DNA from: a virus
Strand: one strand, 5' to 3'
Length of the DNA: 20,797 bases
Virus record (IMG/VR): IMGVR_UViG_3300007162_000030
Location: 1 to 20,797 of that record
The notes beneath the pieces are model-generated. The model was not told the DNA's origin, did no database searches, and was given only the letters and a program-made list of their open reading frames with translations. Both the position numbers and the translations under genes were made by a program. Positions 6,195-20,788 of this stretch are shown piece by piece. Position 1 is the first letter of the stretch. Every line of letters starts with the position of its first letter.

Positions 6195-8916
6195 TTAATT
6201 TTCCAACACAATCAACAACATTTATAACAGGAGAACCTGGAGGGACTTCAAAAGGATCTACCGTATTATCTAGGCGAGTAAATGAATACACTGGGACAAG
6301 CAAGGCGTTTATCCCAGTCTGAGATTCAACAGTAATTACAGGATTATCCACAAATCCACACCCTTTAGCAATGAGACTAACTTCTCTTATGACTCCAAAT
6401 TCATCAATAATTGGTTCAAACTTGGCTCCATTGTTTGGGTTTATTGTAATTACGTCTCCAGGTGAATAATTTACCCCACCATTTAATATAGCAAGATCTT
6501 CAATACAAACATACACTTGGTAAGTATTATTTTTACCCGAATCACGATTCGTTGTCCCTATCCCGGTTTTATTATCGTCATTTAAAATAACGCCAGTAAA
6601 TCTAGATTTTCTTTCTAACTTTAAATTCACTAAGTTATTAAAAACAATAGAGAATTTTTCATCTTTTTCTACTTCAAGATCACCCTTCACATTTACCGTA
6701 ATAGTTTTAACTTCCTCATCTGGCCTAAAAATAACTATACCCGATGGGAACTCTCCATTAACAAAGTCAGATGCCCTAGCAGGGGAGTTTCCAGAACCAA
6801 CAATTTTCCAATTTGCAGAGCTTCTATTGCTTAGATTTCCGGTTCTTACTATAGTTATATCAAAAGAAGTTTTCCCCGAATTACCTTCTTTTTGTTCAAT
6901 AAGATCAACCGAAAAGGAAATTGTTGGCGAAATATCTTGATTGTTGTTGTCCCCACCTTCTACATCATCTCCATCTGAAGGAACGCAATCTGGAGTAAGA
7001 ATGGTTCCATTTTGTTTTATTCTAAGTTCTGTAAGTTGACCCTGCCCGTTTAAGGTCTGAACAACTTCACCTTGATTATTTAAAACTTCAACAACTGTTT
7101 TTCTTGGGAGATATATTCTTTGTCCTTCTTTAACCTTTACTTCTTTACCTGGTAAATAAACATCAGTGTTTATAATTGTATCGCACTTACCAGAAAATAG
7201 TGCTCCATCTCCTCCGGTTGACCCATCTGGGGAATTTAGATAATTAGACCCAGAGTCAATAATTACAACGTTAGAAACGAAATATTCATCCCCACTAGAA
7301 CTTTGAGAATTTTCTTTGGGGTATTTTTCGGTTATGGCAACGGCTATGGCCCCGTTCCCTAAACCACAATCATCCACAATCCTAACATTTACTTGAGGGG
7401 TCTGGACAATAGCCGTCTCAGATCCTAATCCGACTGTTGTAGTTGTAGTATATCTGCCACCAGTTAATAAGTCAACCCCCATTATTTGCCCGGCCAGACC
7501 AACAACCACATTCCCAGATGCCGGAGTGCCAGTGCCCCCAAAAAAGTCTAGAGTAGGAGGTCCACAAAAAAGAGGTAGAGCACTGCAGCCAGGAATCAAT
7601 CCTCCACCAAAAGCAGTGCCAGAGCCAACAAAGGCAAGTAGATTACTTGAAATACTTGAATTACTACCTAAAGGTTGGCGTACTAAAGAAGACCCATCCC
7701 AAAAGGACCATTCATCTAATATTTGGCAATCTAGATCTGGCTCACAAGAGAGAAATTCTAAAACTCCGATTAGAATATCAAATGCCTGGAATAGTAAGGT
7801 AGCCACATCAAGTATAACTCCAGAAATTTCTCCTAATGCCCCGAGAATTCCAGAAGTCAACTCACCCAAGAAACTAGAAATTAAACTAGAAATAAAACTT
7901 TCAGCTGCACACAACGGAGCATTTACATAATTTTCTACGGCCTGTTCTAATAAACTTTTAACTATCGCCAATAGAGCAGTAACAATTTTGTTGAAAACAC
8001 ATTGTATTGTGTCATTTACTTTTTTTGAAGTTTGTGCTGCGTTTGCTCTTAAATTAGGAGGAAGTAATTCATATAATTTAGTAAGCTCTTTATTTAATCT
8101 ATTAACAATATACCCTCTTACTTTTGCTATTAAAGACTTAGCTAAACCTGCAATTAAATTAGTATATACGGTTATTAATGACGCTATATTAGAAGTTAAA
8201 TTAGAAGCCGCCCCAATAAACTGCTGGGAAGCTCTTTTTGCTCTTTTTACTTCAAACAAAAAAGATTTTAACTGTTTTTGAAACCCCTGTAACTCACCAG
8301 ATGGACCCTCACAATTTATGGTTTTAGGTGTAAAGAAACTTCTTTTGCCATCTTCTTTTTGATCCCAATGGCAAATAGTAGCCTGATGTGGACTTGTTGA
8401 TTTTCCTTCAACTTCAACTGGTGAATTTGGACCTTCTAACCTGACATAAGAAGTTGAGACTGGAATAGATCTCCCAACCCCTTTAAACCCACTTCGGGGA
8501 ATGAAATTTTCCTCAGGATTGCCGCCAAATAGTGGAACTCTAGGATCATTTGGAAGAACCCCAACGATAACAGGTTGAGTCCCGTAAATATCTTTAAAAA
8601 ACCCAAAAACATACATCCCTTGCTTTATGTTCGGGGTTTGATGTGAGCCACCATGACCTGAACCCGCTGTTGTTGGAAGAAGGATCTCGGCCATCGGTAA
8701 TTGGTCATCTGGAATATCTTTTACCTCTACATGTTTTCCAATAATCTGCACCTTACATCTTCTTGATGCCCCAGCAATATCATTTGTTAGGTGTATTTTA
8801 TGCTCAAAGTTTGAATTTGCATGGTTTCCTATCCAGGTGGAATCATCAACTACTTGCCCAATCCACCCATAAAGTTGATTTAATCCTCCGGTTTGCGGGT
8901 CAAAGAATTGATTCAT
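6181..8916 (-). CDS. 5: Baseplate hub/spike protein gp5-like (OB-fold, no lysozyme domain)
   Basis: This 911-aa protein begins with an OB-fold domain of the gp5/gpV spike type (residues ~15-130). It includes GWIGQVVDD, CKVQIIGKHVE, DDQLPMAEILLPTTAGSG, KQGMYVFGFFKD and QPVIVGVLPNDP, the canonical gp5 N-terminal pattern. The lysozyme domain of T4 gp5 is not present. Instead, residues ~207-395 form a long helical and very hydrophobic block (LISSFLGELTSGILGALG and VATLLFQAFDILIGVLEFL). A Gly-rich beta segment follows, then a Calx-beta-like domain at ~662-782 (IEQKEGNSGKTSFDITIVRTG, VKTITVNVKGDLEVEKDEKF, GVILNDD). Two to three G-x-x-Y repeats occur at ~550-560 and ~808-863. It overlaps the preceding 69-aa gene by 4 nt (ATGA) and the needle-like gene by 14 nt. 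In T4, gp5 sits on the gp27 trimer and pierces the outer membrane. Confidence 0.85.
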   Translation of the reverse strand: MNQFFDPQTGGLNQLYGWIGQVVDDSTWIGNHANSNFEHKIHLTNDIAGASRRCKVQIIGKHVEVKDIPDDQLPMAEILLPTTAGSGHGGSHQTPNIKQGMYVFGFFKDIYGTQPVIVGVLPNDPRVPLFGGNPEENFIPRSGFKGVGRSIPVSTSYVRLEGPNSPVEVEGKSTSPHQATICHWDQKEDGKRSFFTPKTINCEGPSGELQGFQKQLKSFLFEVKRAKRASQQFIGAASNLTSNIASLITVYTNLIAGLAKSLIAKVRGYIVNRLNKELTKLYELLPPNLRANAAQTSKKVNDTIQCVFNKIVTALLAIVKSLLEQAVENYVNAPLCAAESFISSLISSFLGELTSGILGALGEISGVILDVATLLFQAFDILIGVLEFLSCEPDLDCQILDEWSFWDGSSLVRQPLGSNSSISSNLLAFVGSGTAFGGGLIPGCSALPLFCGPPTLDFFGGTGTPASGNVVVGLAGQIMGVDLLTGGRYTTTTTVGLGSETAIVQTPQVNVRIVDDCGLGNGAIAVAITEKYPKENSQSSSGDEYFVSNVVIIDSGSNYLNSPDGSTGGDGALFSGKCDTIINTDVYLPGKEVKVKEGQRIYLPRKTVVEVLNNQGEVVQTLNGQGQLTELRIKQNGTILTPDCVPSDGDDVEGGDNNNQDISPTISFSVDLIEQKEGNSGKTSFDITIVRTGNLSNRSSANWKIVGSGNSPARASDFVNGEFPSGIVIFRPDEEVKTITVNVKGDLEVEKDEKFSIVFNNLVNLKLERKSRFTGVILNDDNKTGIGTTNRDSGKNNTYQVYVCIEDLAILNGGVNYSPGDVITINPNNGAKFEPIIDEFGVIREVSLIAKGCGFVDNPVITVESQTGINALLVPVYSFTRLDNTVDPFEVPPGSPVINVVDCVGKLNEFN

Positions 8917-9122
8917 ATATTAAATATTTTGCACTCTAGAGCACTAGGATTAAAGAAGCAAAATAGTTCTAGTGGAGTTGGATCTTTTTCAGATTCTGGA
9001 TTGGCCATCTGAAATTTAAGGAGATCAGATAATTCAGTAGAGAGATGTCTTCGTCTCTGTGAACTAATCATTGGATCAGATAGTTCTCGCTCATTATTTT
9101 TGATGTGTTCAGATAATTTCAT
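8913..9122 (-). CDS. Small conserved-looking protein between gp27 and gp5 (69 aa)
   Basis: This is a 69-residue hydrophilic protein. Residues 1-40 are predicted helical and highly charged (MKLSEHIKNNERELSDP, then SSQRRRHLSTELSDLLKFQ). The end carries a DPTPLELFCFFNPSALECK motif with two Cys. I recall small proteins with a QRRRHL...DPTPLELFC pattern in T4-like cyanophages, without known function. Its ATG overlaps the gp27 stop (ATGA), and its stop overlaps the gp5 start (ATGA), so it is translationally locked between the two hub partners. A role as a hub-assembly helper is a guess from position. The Cys pair could bind metal or form a disulfide. Confidence 0.7.
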   Translation of the reverse strand: MKLSEHIKNNERELSDPMISSQRRRHLSTELSDLLKFQMANPESEKDPTPLELFCFFNPSALECKIFNI

Positions 9123-16109: not shown

Positions 16110-16292
16110 TTATTGTGATAAGGATTTTTGTTTTTGTTCTTCCTCTTCAATATGTTGATTCAACATTATTACATAAAGTTCGCGTTCAAAAGGCATAAAA
16201 TTTTCTATTTCGGCTATTGACCATTTGTGAAATTGGGCCAGGCTAAAATTAATTTTATAATAATTCATTAAGTCAATATGACTTAAACTCAA
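16110..16292 (-). CDS. 51: gp51-like tail/baseplate hub assembly protein, probably made by -1 frameshift from gp26
   Basis: This 60-codon frame reads LSLSHIDLMNYYKINFSLAQ, then FHKWSIAEIENFMPFERELY and VIMLNQHIEEEEQKQ. Position right after gp26 and before the tape-measure gene, small size and the FMPFERELYV helix fit the gp51 type hub-assembly factors. The frame opens at a TTG overlapping the gp26 TGA (TTGA) and has no Shine-Dalgarno at proper distance. The first ATG is at codon 9 (16268) and also lacks one. A -1 slip at the heptamer 16295-16301 enters exactly this frame one codon (Arg) before the TTG and gives a 300-aa gp26-gp51 fusion. I therefore favour expression as a fusion, with separate TTG initiation as the alternative. 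Its stop is immediately followed by the tape-measure ATG. Confidence 0.65.
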   Translation of the reverse strand: MSLSHIDLMNYYKINFSLAQFHKWSIAEIENFMPFERELYVIMLNQHIEEEEQKQKSLSQ

Positions 16293-16313
16293 CCGAAAAA
16301 ATCTGATAACCCT
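16268..16313 (-). promoter_or_regulatory. Candidate programmed -1 ribosomal frameshift signal (gp26 to gp51)
   Basis: Read on the minus strand, there are three elements in order. AGGG at 16313-16310 resembles an internal Shine-Dalgarno. Eight nt later the heptamer T-TTT-TTC occupies 16301-16295, in the X-XXY-YYZ register of the gp26 frame (GAT TTT TTC GGT TGA). After an 8-nt spacer, a perfect 8-bp stem (TTAAGTCA and TGACTTAA, 3-nt loop TAT) lies at 16286-16268. The -1 frame is the gp51 frame. This matches the architecture of known bacterial and phage -1 sites (dnaX, lambda G/GT). The stem is AT-rich, so its stimulatory strength is uncertain. Confidence 0.7.
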
Positions 16314-17011
16314 GCCAAAGTAATTTCACTTTCAACTTTAGTTTCTGGATTTTTAATCTTGATCTTATGCTCTAACTTAGGCATAGTTTCAAAGAACTTT
16401 TCAATCTCACCAAATTGGGTTGAATTGAAATTTTCTATAAAATCCACAATTTCTTTGAGTGTAACATCAGCAGATGTCCAAACTTCTTCTTCACTGTAAA
16501 TTGTATCCACGCAAGAAGCAATTAGTTCAATAGATTGTTCTAACTGATTTTTTCTGTCGTCAAAACTAAAGTTGGACTTAATAAATTGCTCCAGAGATGG
16601 ATATTTCATTTCCATCATTAGTGTATCATTGATCTTTATTTTGTTTGTGTGGGTTGGATCTTTTTTGATTTTAATTTCATCAATAAAAATCTTTGTTTTT
16701 ACATATGTTTCGCCATCATCTGGACAAAGAAGTTGTAATTCAATTTCTTCGCCTACGGCTTTACCGCGAATATTAAGAAAGAGATATTCAATATCAAAAG
16801 TTGGTAAAGTTTCAATATCTAAATTTTCACCTTTTACACAACTAGAAAGTACATTTTTAACCGCGTTAGACATTTCCGAAACATCTTCAGACTCAAGAGC
16901 AAGAAGAAGAACTTTTTCTTCTTTTACAACAAACGGGCGATACTTTACTTTTTTTCCATTCGATGGAAGTTCAAGAAAATATTCAGGGGCATTAATAACG
17001 GGAAGAGGCAT
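16289..17011 (-). CDS. 26: Baseplate hub assembly protein gp26-like (tail chaperone)
   Basis: This 240-aa protein resembles the T4 gp26-type baseplate family (T4_baseplate). It starts MPLPVINAPEYFLELPSNGK, followed by KVKYRPFVVKEEKVLLLALE, then a conserved-looking LPTFDIEYLFLNIRGKAVGEEI and a middle segment with CPDDGETY. The C-terminal half is helical (LEQFIKSNFSFDDRKNQLEQ, EIVDFIENFNSTQFGEIEKF) and ends GLSDFFG. In T4, gp26 is needed to build the central hub and is thought to act as an assembly factor. Here it directly precedes gp51 and the tape-measure gene, the usual place of tail chaperones. The last codons contain the frameshift signal described at 16268-16313. No clear Shine-Dalgarno precedes the ATG. 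A late-promoter-like ACTAAATA lies about 31 nt upstream. Confidence 0.8.
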   Translation of the reverse strand: MPLPVINAPEYFLELPSNGKKVKYRPFVVKEEKVLLLALESEDVSEMSNAVKNVLSSCVKGENLDIETLPTFDIEYLFLNIRGKAVGEEIELQLLCPDDGETYVKTKIFIDEIKIKKDPTHTNKIKINDTLMMEMKYPSLEQFIKSNFSFDDRKNQLEQSIELIASCVDTIYSEEEVWTSADVTLKEIVDFIENFNSTQFGEIEKFFETMPKLEHKIKIKNPETKVESEITLAGLSDFFG

Positions 17012-17041: not shown

Positions 17042-17049
17042 TATTTAGT
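17042..17049 (-). promoter_or_regulatory. Late-promoter-like box ACTAAATA before gp26
   Basis: The minus strand reads ACTAAATAA, with the TAAATA core of T4-type late promoters. It lies in the 52-nt gap after the gp54-like gene and about 30 nt before the gp26 ATG. The CTAAATAA octamer is shared with the site before the large structural gene at 3607. Nothing else is evident in this gap. Confidence 0.35.
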
Positions 17050-17063
17050 GCCTATACGTTAGG

Positions 17064-17723
17064 TTATGGTCTAGAAGTAGGTTGAAGTGGGCCAGTCTCA
17101 GTAGATAAAACATATCTCAAATAAGAAAAAGATACTGTATATTTTAACAATTGAGAAGACTCATAAGAAACTGGGGTTGATGCAATTGAAAGAGGAAACG
17201 CACCAATAAAGTCATATTTTAAATATTTTCGGCTTGTGTTATAATCTTTCTCAAATTTATAAATGGTTAAAGCCTTTGCTATGTAATCTTCAGGGAAATT
17301 GACCCGGTAGAAATAATTAGTTGTACTTTGATCATTTAAACTATCTTCCCCGACGATATAAGAAATCCAATTTTCAAAAAATAAAATAACTGAATAGTAA
17401 TCTCCCGCTCCCGCTCCAGAATTATCTACATAAAAAGAAAAGTCTGCACGGTTATCATATGATCTTCTATATGCATAATTTTCAGTGACGCCAGTATAAG
17501 AATCAGTTAAAGTGGCAGTTTGTAATGTTGATCCTGGAAGAGAAGCATCACAGCAACTTATGTTTATTTTTTCTTCGATAATTGGTGTTATATTAAGTTT
17601 ACGGCCTCGAATGAATTTTTTTACATTTTCTGGTGGAGTAAATACGCATTCAAAATGGCTGGTTGTAGCAGGCCGCAAAAGTTTAGATTTAATTTCCGAT
17701 AAAGTTCTAATTTTTGGGGCCAT
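17064..17723 (-). CDS. Tail-tube-fold baseplate protein (gp54-like tube initiator)
   Basis: This 219-aa protein has the texture of a T4 tail-tube-fold protein. The N-terminus (MAPKIRTLSEIKSKLLRPAT followed by HFECVFTPP) is followed by ISCCDASLPGSTLQTATLTD, a common early strand/loop of tube proteins. A central beta section follows (RADFSFYVDN, SVILFFENWISYIVG). The C-terminal strands are KYDFIGAFPLSIASTPVSYE and LLKYTVSFSYLRYVL. In T4, gp54 and gp48 are two baseplate proteins with the tube fold that start tube polymerisation. Since a gp48-like gene is present on the other arm, gp54 is the best guess, though this protein is shorter than T4 gp54 (320 aa). A tube protein gp19 paralogue is the alternative. 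It is the first gene of the leftward unit. The ATG has no obvious ribosome-binding site. Confidence 0.6.
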   Translation of the reverse strand: MAPKIRTLSEIKSKLLRPATTSHFECVFTPPENVKKFIRGRKLNITPIIEEKINISCCDASLPGSTLQTATLTDSYTGVTENYAYRRSYDNRADFSFYVDNSGAGAGDYYSVILFFENWISYIVGEDSLNDQSTTNYFYRVNFPEDYIAKALTIYKFEKDYNTSRKYLKYDFIGAFPLSIASTPVSYESSQLLKYTVSFSYLRYVLSTETGPLQPTSRP

Positions 17724-17724
17724 T

Positions 17725-17732
17725 TATAAATA
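17725..17732 (+). promoter_or_regulatory. T4-type late promoter TATAAATA (rightward)
   Basis: This is an exact match to the T4 late -10 octamer on the plus strand, placed in the 38-bp divergent gap. Transcription would start near 17738-17740, leaving a leader of about 20-25 nt before the gp4 start. Confidence 0.6.
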
Positions 17733-17747
17733 ACTATTGTTAATAAG

Positions 17748-17755
17748 TATTTATT
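17748..17755 (-). promoter_or_regulatory. Late promoter-like AATAAATA (leftward)
   Basis: On the minus strand this reads AATAAATA, one base from the T4 late octamer and matching the NATAAATA form. It would start transcription near 17741 and serve the leftward hub operon starting at 17723. Its ATAAATA forms an inverted repeat with the rightward box, 15 bp apart. Confidence 0.5.
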
Positions 17756-17761
17756 ATACCT

Positions 17762-18202
17762 TTGACCAATTATCTTCAGGGATTATTTAAACCAAAAAAT
17801 CCACAAAAATACATTGGCGATATAAACCAAATTGTATTTAGATCTTCATGGGAATTAAGAGCATTCAAATGGGCTGATGAAACTGAGAGCATCCTAGAAT
17901 GGTCATCCGAACCATTTCCAATAAAATATTTTGACTATTCGACCAATAAAGTTAGAAGATATTTCCCTGATTTATTTCTAAAAATAAAAAACAAAGAAGG
18001 AGTAATTGAATCTTATATTGTAGAAATAAAACCCGAAAAGCAAACAATACCACCGAAAAGAGGAAAAAAGAGAACTTCTACTTACTTAAATGAAGTTGCT
18101 ACGTATGAAAAAAATATTTCTAAGTGGAATCAAGCAAAGCAATTTTGTGAATCAAATAATATACTATTCAAGGTAATAACAGAAAAGCAATTAGGAATCT
18201 AA
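17762..18202 (+). CDS. 4: Head completion protein gp4-like (nuclease-like fold)
   Basis: This 146-aa protein is close to T4 gp4 in length (about 150 aa) and pattern: FKPKNPQKYIGDINQIVFRS, SWELRAFKWAD, WSSEPFPIKYF, RRYFPDLFLKIK, YIVEIKPEKQTIPPK. The arrangement Glu31, Asp70, Glu88-x-Lys90 is the signature of a PD-(D/E)XK nuclease-type fold. In T4, gp4 is required to complete filled heads before tail joining. The protein contains no internal Met, and the in-frame stop at 17744 leaves TTG at 17762 as the best start. ATT (17753) and ATA (17756) are less likely. No clear ribosome-binding site is present. It is the first gene of the rightward unit and is followed after one base by the 192-aa gene. 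Confidence 0.85.
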   Translation: MTNYLQGLFKPKNPQKYIGDINQIVFRSSWELRAFKWADETESILEWSSEPFPIKYFDYSTNKVRRYFPDLFLKIKNKEGVIESYIVEIKPEKQTIPPKRGKKRTSTYLNEVATYEKNISKWNQAKQFCESNNILFKVITEKQLGI

Positions 18203-18203
18203 A

Positions 18204-18782
18204 ATGGGAATTTTATCTAATATTGCAACAAGAGCCTGGAGTGCTGTTGGTAAAATTTTAACTTATTTTGGTCGCTTAGCAGATGCAAAAAGAAGAAAAA
18301 TTGACAGCGATGAACAGAGAATTGTTTTTCTTGCAAAGCAGCAAAAAAGAGATCCAGAAGAATTTGTAGATTATAAAACAGCAAGACAGGAAAAAGAAAA
18401 AATAAACAAGCTCAAGGAGCTTTCAGAAAATATTCCTAGTGGATATGATCCAAATTATTATTTTAAAACTTTAATTACAGTACTAGCTACTCTAAACAGA
18501 ACTTCTCAATCTTTCCAGTTAAATCAAATTTATACATTTAAATATGTTGGAAGAACCCCAGAATGGTATGACCTAAATCCTGTTGTTTTGGTCACAAGTG
18601 CTAGTGGTTTATATTTTGAGGGAGTTAATTTCCATTGGAAAGACGCGCCTTCTTATGTTGAATCACCTTTTAGAAAATATAGATTCGACAGAGTGCAATC
18701 AAAGTTCTACAAAATTAATCCAGATGAACTAGATTATGTTTTAAAAATTCCAACTTTTTATCCGATTAAAGTAAATAAATAA
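18204..18782 (+). CDS. Hypothetical virion-associated protein (192 aa)
   Basis: I do not recognise this 192-aa protein with certainty. Residues 1-25 are hydrophobic/amphipathic (MGILSNIATRAWSAVGKILT followed by YFGRLADAKRR). A long charged helical segment follows (to ~80). The C-terminal domain is beta-rich, with SFQLNQIYTFKYVGRTPEWY, DLNPVVLVTSASGLYFEGVN, FHWKDAPSYVESPFRKYRF and SKFYKINPDELDYVLKIPTF. The YDxNP...GLYFxGxNxHW pattern resembles small structural proteins of T4-like marine phages that I recall, none with a firm function. It sits one base after gp4 (TAA-A-ATG) and before gp48, so it is probably a head-tail connection or baseplate component. No enzyme motif is visible. Confidence 0.75.
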   Translation: MGILSNIATRAWSAVGKILTYFGRLADAKRRKIDSDEQRIVFLAKQQKRDPEEFVDYKTARQEKEKINKLKELSENIPSGYDPNYYFKTLITVLATLNRTSQSFQLNQIYTFKYVGRTPEWYDLNPVVLVTSASGLYFEGVNFHWKDAPSYVESPFRKYRFDRVQSKFYKINPDELDYVLKIPTFYPIKVNK

Positions 18783-18800
18783 TTAAAATATAACAAATAA

Positions 18801-20072
18801 ATGGGCGAAAACAACGAAGGTTATTCCCGAGAATTTTTACTGAATAACAAAACATACAGAGTAAAAAAAGAAGGATCGATCATTGAAAGAAAATCTGGGG
18901 AAAATTGGGTAAATATCGGCACTATGAGCCCAGGTGGCGGGCTAAGTCCAACTAATGATGCCACGGAACAAGAGGTAAAAAATTTTGAGAGCCTTGTCAA
19001 AGAAGGTAAAAAAGCAATCGCGGGACCAACTGCAACTGAAGAGACTATTGTTTATCGGGGAGTACAAGATCCAAAAACAAAAAAAACAACCCCATTTAAT
19101 ACAATAAAAGTATATCCAAAAAACATGAGTCCAAAACAAGATAGGATGGAATTTAGTGTTTGGCAATATGCAGATAGGACAATACAAAAAACAGTGTCAG
19201 ATGCTATTGCATTTGGTAGTACAAGAAGAGCCACTGCAGAAACTGGCTATAATCGGGTCACCTCAGCTGGATTCGTTTATTTACCTATTAATAAAGTTGC
19301 TGATACAAATTCAGTTGATTGGCAAGAGGATCGGATTAATGAATTACAAAGACAGCTGGCTAACATATCTTTAGGGGTGTCGTTGGGGTCTGGTGACAGG
19401 CAAGGGGTTGAAAATGAAGTAGGGGGGTTTGATCCTTATACTAGATTTGCCACAGGAACCCCGGCTGGTAATCTCATACGAACATTTCTTGCAGGGCAGG
19501 CGGTACAAGTTAATAATCTTTTAACTCGTGCAACGGGTAGTACATTAAACCCCAACCTAGAGTTGCTTTTTAATGGTCCGCAATTAAGACAATTTTCTTT
19601 TTCATTTGATTTATTCGCAAAAGGAACACAAGAAGCTACAATTATTAAAGATATAATTTATTTTTTTAAGGCATATATGGCCGTAAGAGATACGATAGGG
19701 GATATCGGTCAATTTGGCCCGTCAACTGAAAATCAACAGAGTACGTTAGAACCACAAACTTCTTCTGTGGGTGTATTTTTAAATTCACCCTATGTGTTTA
19801 GAGTTAAATATATTAAAGGAAATAAAGATGATAAATCAAAAGAAATTACTGGCCCGGAAAATTCCATAGAACATCCCTCAATCGGGAAAATAAAAATGTG
19901 TGCTCTTCAAAGTTGCACTGTAGATTATACACCGCTTGGAACTTATATGACTTTTAATGATGAGTCGGATCCAGAGGCAACAATGGTCATGTATAGAATT
20001 ACATTGCAGTTTAAAGAGCTGACTCCGATTTATGCTTCTGATTATGAAGGCACTCACCCAATAGGATACTAA
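18801..20072 (+). CDS. 48: Baseplate tail tube cap gp48-like
   Basis: This 423-aa protein is longer than T4 gp48 (364 aa). Diagnostic regions are in the second half: LNPNLELLFNGPQLRQFSFS, FDLFAKGTQEATIIKDIIYF, FKAYMAVRD, VGVFLNSPYVFRVKYIKGN, CALQSCTVDYTPLGTYMTFN and MYRITLQFKELTPIYASDY. Together they give the beta-barrel and end pattern of gp48 tube-cap proteins. The first ~110 residues are a hydrophilic Lys/Glu/Thr-rich extension that could explain the extra length. In T4, gp48 with gp54 forms the two rings on top of the hub from which the tube and sheath grow. It starts 18 nt after the 192-aa gene, preceded by AACAAATAA. Its stop shares a base with the gp53 ATG (TAATG). Confidence 0.8.
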   Translation: MGENNEGYSREFLLNNKTYRVKKEGSIIERKSGENWVNIGTMSPGGGLSPTNDATEQEVKNFESLVKEGKKAIAGPTATEETIVYRGVQDPKTKKTTPFNTIKVYPKNMSPKQDRMEFSVWQYADRTIQKTVSDAIAFGSTRRATAETGYNRVTSAGFVYLPINKVADTNSVDWQEDRINELQRQLANISLGVSLGSGDRQGVENEVGGFDPYTRFATGTPAGNLIRTFLAGQAVQVNNLLTRATGSTLNPNLELLFNGPQLRQFSFSFDLFAKGTQEATIIKDIIYFFKAYMAVRDTIGDIGQFGPSTENQQSTLEPQTSSVGVFLNSPYVFRVKYIKGNKDDKSKEITGPENSIEHPSIGKIKMCALQSCTVDYTPLGTYMTFNDESDPEATMVMYRITLQFKELTPIYASDYEGTHPIGY

Positions 20073-20788
20073 TGGCACATTATTTCAGCTACGTTCCAAA
20101 TCTTGAATATGTCAACCGCCTCCCTAATGCTAAAATAAGCGAATATACTCAAATAAAAAACTTTTTTAGAAGAGGGAAATTATTTGAAGAATTATTCGAT
20201 AATTTAGCATTTTTTACAAAATACAGTATTATCGGCAATGAAAGAGCGGACAATATTGCCTCAAAGTTTTATGGGGATCCCACACTAGATTGGGTTATTT
20301 TTCTTTCTAATAATATTATAAATGTCCAAGAGGAATGGCCGCTGCCTCAGCAAACATTTGATAAGATTATGTTGCAGAAATATAGTTCGTATGAAGAGCT
20401 TTACAGTGGTATTCATCACTATGAAACTCTAGAGATAAAAGATTCTATAGGTAGAGTTTTATTAGAAGCAGGCAAACAAATAAGTCCAACGTGGAGTACA
20501 AATGGAAACTATGTGGAAAATAATGGCGTGTATTATTTTGGGTTTTATGATAGTGGAATACAACAAGACGTTTTAGTTCCATCAACTGACTTTATTGCCG
20601 AAGTAACTAATTATCAATATGAAGTCAGAAAAGAAGAAAAGAAAAGAGATATTTTTATTCTTAAACCAATATACTTAAATGTATTGTTTGAAAATCTTGA
20701 AGAAATTATGACTTATAAGGAAGGTGGAACTCAATATATCAACAGGAAACTAAAACGCGGCGAGAATATAAGAATTTTTGAATATTAA
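20072..20788 (+). CDS. 53: Baseplate wedge subunit gp53-like
   Basis: This 238-aa protein shows the gp53 wedge pattern: YFSYVPNLEYVNRLPNAKIS, EYTQIKNFFRRGKLFEELFD, then FFTKYSIIGNERADNIASKF and YGDPTLDWVIFLSNNIINVQ, and a following WPLPQQTFDKIM. The GNERADNIASKFYGDPTLDWVI part is the LysM-like core known in gp53 family proteins. The C-terminus (KKRDIFILKPIYLNVLFENL) is also typical. T4 gp53 (196 aa) joins neighbouring wedges around the hub to close the baseplate. The gene is coupled to gp48 by TAATG. Only nine bases (AAAAAGGCCC region) follow its stop before the window ends, so the operon may continue. Confidence 0.88.
   Translation: MAHYFSYVPNLEYVNRLPNAKISEYTQIKNFFRRGKLFEELFDNLAFFTKYSIIGNERADNIASKFYGDPTLDWVIFLSNNIINVQEEWPLPQQTFDKIMLQKYSSYEELYSGIHHYETLEIKDSIGRVLLEAGKQISPTWSTNGNYVENNGVYYFGFYDSGIQQDVLVPSTDFIAEVTNYQYEVRKEEKKRDIFILKPIYLNVLFENLEEIMTYKEGGTQYINRKLKRGENIRIFEY

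Follow-up and report, generated by a model that had tools for sequence, protein, structure and literature searches.

Facing T4-type late-promoter boxes in the divergent gap upstream of gp4 in a T4-like cyanophage and its relatives

The gp4 junction and its two boxes

The window analyzed here, i.e., the whole stretch of 20,797 bases, belongs to a T4-like cyanophage whose closest named relative in the phage collection is Synechococcus phage B23 (gp4 identity 72.6%). A divergent gap of 38 bp (17724-17761) separates a gene for a tail-tube-like protein on the minus strand (17064-17723; phrog_45, E 1.7e-27; PF23849) from gp4 on the plus strand (17762-18202; phrog_218, E 5.5e-52), which encodes the head closure/completion protein and begins with the same TTG codon as the annotated gene of B23. 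The tail-tube-like gene is the first of the minus or hub arm, which continues to the left on the same strand with a gp26-like baseplate hub chaperone (16289-17011; phrog_150, E 1.8e-71; B23 annotation) and hub genes. On the other side, gp4 heads the plus arm and is followed on the same strand by genes for a gp2-like DNA end protector (18204-18782; phrog_429, E 5.9e-14), a gp48-like baseplate tail tube cap (18801-20072; phrog_230, E 3e-41) and a gp53-like baseplate wedge protein (20072-20788; phrog_232, E 5.3e-57; the name gp53 is given by position). The original prediction had described this arm as gp4-gp48-gp53; these genes are indeed present, but the gp2-like gene between gp4 and gp48 had been overlooked, and the order is gp4-gp2-gp48-gp53.

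The gap contains two late-promoter boxes that face each other. The box of the gp4 arm, TATAAATA, is located on the plus strand (17725-17732), 29 nt before the gp4 start, while that of the tail-tube-like/hub arm, AATAAATA, is located on the minus strand (17755-17748), 24 nt before its own start. In agreement with the original prediction, coordinates and sequences place both boxes within the 38-bp gap, where they form an inverted repeat with 15 bp between them, and each box is nearer to the gene of the opposite unit: a single base separates the plus box from the ATG of the minus-strand gene (17721-17723), and 6 bp separate the minus box from the gp4 TTG (17762). The spacer between the two 8-mers (17733-17747; not assigned to a strand) would accommodate both start points predicted by T4 numbering as given in PMC1524935. 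Separate late-type boxes precede gp26 (ACTAAATA, minus strand, 17042-17049, 30 nt upstream) and gp48 (AATAAATA, plus strand, 18774-18781, 19 nt upstream).

A facing pair of [AC]TAAATA motifs 0-40 bp apart occurs only once in the window. Whereas such a pair arose somewhere in the sequence in 48 of 300 dinucleotide shuffles of the whole window, none of 2000 local shuffles placed one in the 45-nt slot at the gap. Six of the ten [AC]TAAATA motifs in the window are located 15-35 nt upstream of a start codon on the same strand, a number to be compared with a mean of 0.20 and a maximum of 3 in shuffled windows (n = 300). Based on these two results, the boxes are placed as promoters would be, and a pair at the gap is unlikely to have arisen by chance. 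As expected for late promoters of the T4 type, a consensus box (TATAAATA or NATAAATA) precedes late genes here, and the distances of 29 and 24 nt are short and similar. With ten occurrences vs. a shuffle mean of 20.0 (range 7-33), the motif is rarer in the window than the mean, and this roughly halved frequency might reflect selection against stray late promoters.

Distribution and geometry of the facing boxes

To follow the gap beyond the window, as the original prediction had proposed for related phages, gp4 loci were collected from four scans with gp4 proteins (best 80 matches each) and from named records. This resulted in 314 loci, 310 of which had enough flanking sequence (four were dropped). 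In 307 of these, gp4 and the gene upstream of it are divergent, while L011, L012 and L303 were left out as not scored as divergent. Among the matches listed, 250 of the 307 divergent gp4 junctions carry [AC]TAAATA boxes that face each other within 40 bp, some contigs being counted twice as separate loci. Clustering of loci from the matches listed by gp4 identity gives 62 clusters at 90%, 16 at 70% and 11 at 60%, of which 48, 9 and 7, respectively, have the pair; T4 accounts for one of the 62. Shuffling of the 62 junctions yielded the pair in a mean of 0.17 and at most 2 cases (n = 200). The facing pair is thus kept far beyond close relatives, in cyanophages as well as in T4, and conservation in 48 of 62 clusters among the matches listed is in line with a T4-type late promoter. 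Of the two conditions that the original prediction had named as refuting it, absence of the inverted boxes from close relatives does therefore not apply.

Conservation is not universal, as 14 of the 62 clusters among the matches listed lack the full pair: eleven retain the minus box only, two the plus box only and one neither. In the eleven representatives of the minus-only clusters (L010, L016, L018, L020, L021, L023, L044, L054, L058, L064 and L072) no canonical plus box was recognized by eye, and in at least four of them the minus box overlaps the ATG of gp4. Back-to-back boxes in place of a facing pair occur in none of the 62 clusters from the matches listed, a set that does not include KVP40 (see below). 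In another set of loci (L053, L055-L057 and L059-L062), the distance from the end of TATAAATA to the gp4 ATG is 5 nt; by T4 numbering, transcription would thus begin at the start codon, and a leaderless late mRNA is possible.

Among eight complete cyanophage genomes, seven carry the pair at the gp4 junction, i.e., B23, S-ShM2, S-H34, Syn9, P-SSM2, S-RSM4 and S-PM2. The eighth, S-SCSM1, has the plus box only at this junction, and the one facing TAAATA site of this phage is found at a distance of about 4 kb from gp4. In T4, the facing pair is located in the gap between gene 4 and gene 53. It is also present in eight of nine T4-type contigs, which comprise five distinct junction sequences as judged by eye, the ninth (L423) not having a divergent junction, and in all three further Straboviridae (SA79RD, K65PH164 and SJ_PmiM). 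The genes flanking the pair differ: gp4 resides on the gp48-gp53 side in the window, B23, S-SCSM1 and P-SSM2 (gp48 and gp53 of B23 being named by position), on the hub side facing gp48 in S-ShM2 and Syn9, and on the hub side facing a hypothetical gene that precedes the tail cap in S-H34, while in T4 the order is gp4-gp2-gp3 opposite gp53-gp5. Despite this switching of sides by gp4, the facing boxes are present in all the phages whose gene orders were compared, with the exception of S-SCSM1.

Ten facing [AC]TAAATA pairs (up to 40 bp apart) were counted in the seven pair-bearing cyanophage genomes, which were scanned in pieces of up to 20 kb and, in the case of B23 and P-SSM2, as far as base 240,000. 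Three pairs were found in B23, two in S-PM2 and one each in S-ShM2, S-H34, Syn9, S-RSM4 and P-SSM2. Eight of these ten are located at the gp4 junction, where both pairs of S-PM2 have one box in common, and the other two occur elsewhere in B23. A crude call of open reading frames gave 105 divergent junctions for the same genomes; it chose other starts at the S-RSM4 and P-SSM2 junctions, where facing pairs are nevertheless present. T4 has four facing pairs, two of them at divergent junctions, namely between genes 4 and 53 and between inh and segE; the latter pair (NC_000866, about 112,022-112,041) has its boxes 6 bp apart. A genome-wide preference for facing boxes was ruled out, as facing TAAATA pairs were no more frequent than a reversed-pattern control (6 vs. 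6 in B23, 1 vs. 1 in S-SCSM1, 6 vs. 10 in T4).

The geometry of the pair was studied for the 48 facing representatives, including T4, among the matches listed, with start codons chosen by rule; for S-H34 the gap amounts to 36 bp by this rule vs. 63 bp as annotated. Among these 48 the gap measures 25-48 bp (median 35). On the gp4 side, the distance from box to own start has a median of 25 nt and a range of 10-29 nt, the value of 10 stemming from the annotated start of S-ShM2; on the partner side, the median is 27 nt and the range 22-43 nt. The medians from box to the start codon of the opposite gene are 0 and 2.5 nt. A distance of 20-30 nt to the own start applies to 47 of the 48 representatives from the matches listed on the gp4 side and to 33 on the partner side. 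Over the same 48, the spacing between the 7-mers ranges from 6 to 22 bp, and in the P-SSM2-like group alone from 15 to 21 bp with both boxes kept; invariance of the boxes themselves within groups is built into the selection. Spacing and box-to-own-start distances have similar standard deviations (3.0 vs. 3.0 and 4.0), and the two measures are therefore not separated by their scatter.

A different arrangement is found in the Vibrio phage KVP40 (L428). Here, CTAAATA occurs on both strands at the gp4 junction in back-to-back orientation, the minus box being located to the left of the plus box at a distance of 8 bp. The gap comprises 66 bp, and the boxes lie 26 and 18 nt before their own starts (counted by eye, with the partner start assumed). 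Two facing TAAATA sites are present in KVP40, neither of them near gp4.

Probable overlapping late promoters and alternative readings

Late promoters of T4 are strong, and late transcription of this phage has been reconstituted from purified gp55, gp33, gp45 and RNA polymerase. The T4 late promoter is described as a box of 8 bp occupying positions -13 to -6 (PMC1524935), without conservation at -35 in the account of PMC2988020 and with an open bubble extending from -12 to +2 according to PMC7892883. The sequence NATAAATA/TATAAATA corresponds to the late promoter that has been described for S-PM2 and T4 (PMC2984593), and CTAAATA is given as that of phage Aeh1 (PMC1524935). We consider it probable (about 0.77) that the gap consists of overlapping face-to-face late promoters of the T4 type, i.e., gp55-dependent ones, serving two divergent late operons, and that mutual exclusion is a side effect and not a device for alternation. 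By T4 numbering, the plus box would direct initiation at about 17738 toward gp4-gp2 and the minus box at about 17742 toward the tail-tube-like gene. With these predicted start points, each element lies beyond the start point of the opposite promoter, as is characteristic of face-to-face overlapping divergent promoters. The corresponding bubbles (17726-17739 and 17741-17754) would be placed side by side, and two open complexes could for this reason hardly coexist. The original claim that two polymerases could not bind both boxes at once is consistent with this numbering, according to which the polymerase sites overlap; the gap would then be occupied by one polymerase at a time and the promoters would occlude each other. 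Some interference between the two late promoters is likely, provided that they are strong.

Why the boxes should cross is best pictured as compaction. A single 8-bp box that acts without a -35 element from about 25 nt before its gene would fit twice into some 35 bp only if the two promoters cross, and each crossed box would then come to rest near the start codon of the opposite gene. The exclusion resulting from this arrangement would probably be tolerated and gain relevance only at high initiation rates. As the standard deviations do not separate spacing from box-to-start distance, the case for compaction rests on the range across distant clades and on one phage, KVP40, where the boxes are uncrossed and the gap of 66 bp is just above the approximately 64 bp needed by two uncrossed promoters, which supports compaction. 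A device of fixed geometry was ruled out as the main reading by the spacing of 6-22 bp overall and 15-21 bp in the P-SSM2-like group and by the back-to-back boxes of KVP40.

The original prediction went further and proposed that exclusion might force alternating transcription and balance the two arms. Alternation does not follow, because exclusive binding does not force it, and the bidirectional promoters tested in Escherichia coli are described as competing only when one direction is strongly activated (PMC12825309). A separate late box is located 21-31 nt upstream of gp26 in all seven cyanophages checked and, where gp48 is not the first gene of its arm, 12-27 nt upstream of gp48 in four of five (the window, B23, S-SCSM1, where this gene is annotated as a wedge subunit, and P-SSM2), gp48 of S-H34 having no late box of its own. 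The facing pair is therefore not the sole control of the cyanophage arms; in the cyanophages checked, no promoter other than the pair is evident for the tail-tube-like gene and gp4, which does not hold for the arms in their entirety. Balancing is thus unlikely in cyanophages, while it is not weakened for T4, where no second late box occurs in the 60 nt upstream of genes 5, 2 and 3 and the pair may serve whole arms. The stronger proposal of a dedicated coupling device, in which exclusive occupancy has been selected to balance head-closure/tail-cap against hub gene products, could draw on this T4 arrangement, on the conservation of a single divergent junction across two families of phages even though the flanking genes change sides, and on a single E. 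coli locus at which competition of polymerases for a shared site is described to lower output and noise (PMC12825309). We nevertheless regard it as unlikely, as the spacing varies between 6 and 22 bp, KVP40 has its boxes back-to-back, gp26 (7/7) and gp48 (4/5) of cyanophages possess their own late boxes, and gp4 can reside in either arm, such that the gene products opposed to each other differ between phages.

Other readings assign the two boxes different roles. That only one of them is a promoter and the other a chance or relic motif would agree with the single box in 13 of the 62 clusters among the matches listed; it appears very improbable given that, in the same clusters from the matches listed, both boxes occur in 48 vs. 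a shuffle mean of 0.17 and that the distance of each box to its own gene is that of a promoter. Even less credible is an inverted repeat acting as a protein-binding operator or an RNA hairpin instead of as two promoters: it is true that the repeat is located in a divergent gap and that the T4 version is a near-palindrome, yet the arms conform to the consensus of late promoters, the spacing ranges from 6 to 22 bp, and gp26 and gp48 are each preceded by a lone box of this type. A further, highly speculative thought is that the pair reads replication polarity, i.e., that clamp loading or fork direction would decide which arm fires and output would be balanced over many replicating genomes. The T4 sliding clamp is described as activating late promoters of one orientation only, which is set by the loading strand (PMC2988020), and if this thought were correct, the polarity of the clamp would pick the arm that fires at a facing pair.

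Comparison with known systems and further observations

Late promoters of the T4 type, which depend on gp55, gp33 and gp45, share with those of the window the 8-bp TATAAATA/NATAAATA box, the lack of a second element and the position before late structural genes. Unlike ordinary promoters of this type, the window has two that overlap head-on in one short gap, and their use of gp55 is predicted. The T4 gap between genes 4 and 53 exhibits the same facing pair, and Escherichia phage vB_EcoM_SA79RD (OL960576) has a homologous gp4 junction with facing boxes 7 bp apart between head completion and baseplate wedge genes, the partner being a baseplate wedge gene as in T4. These boxes are annotated, by similarity only, as two T4-late promoters, and such a pair has thus already been noticed by the SA79RD depositor as predicted late promoters. 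Published discussion of the facing pair was not found in titles or abstract openings, which also did not name a start-site map for any cyanophage with gp55; the Ma-LMM01 paper (PMC5780444) concerns a phage that lacks gp55, and the promoters it treats are predicted ones.

Face-to-face promoters are also known from plasmids, e.g., trfAp/trbAp of RP4 and repBp/repXp of RA3, which are likewise opposed and of which the stronger is described to reduce the weaker (PMC7314908, PMC9455977). Several of these plasmid promoters are under named repressors (KorA, KorB, RepA), whereas those of the window are minimal single-box phage promoters with no repressor known. The bidirectional promoters with a shared -10 element reported by Warman, Grainger and colleagues (PMC12825309) resemble the gap in that one site serves two directions and polymerases exclude each other. 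As described there, however, the starts lie on either side of or within one -10 element, and the gap does not belong to this class, as two separate boxes 15 bp apart flank the predicted starts. An assignment of the gap to overlapping promoters that are placed face to face and composed of late boxes of the T4 type is well supported, and the pair has the appearance of a shared, compact control region and not of a switch whose action is proven. This points to one control site common to T4 and most of the cyanophages examined that was kept while gp4 moved between operons, and T4 offers a ready system for studying the effect of head-on late promoters on each other as well as the choice of direction by clamp polarity.

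Apart from the gp4 junction, the window encodes on its minus strand (8913-9122) a protein of 69 amino acids with a match to the CP12 domain (PF02672, E 1.2e-6), whose gene overlaps both neighboring tail genes by a few bases. Relatives of this protein (37-42% identity) occur in Syn9 (gp17), S-RSM4 and S-ShM2. In Syn9, the phage whose surroundings were inspected, gp17 adjoins a CpeT-like gene and precedes gp5.
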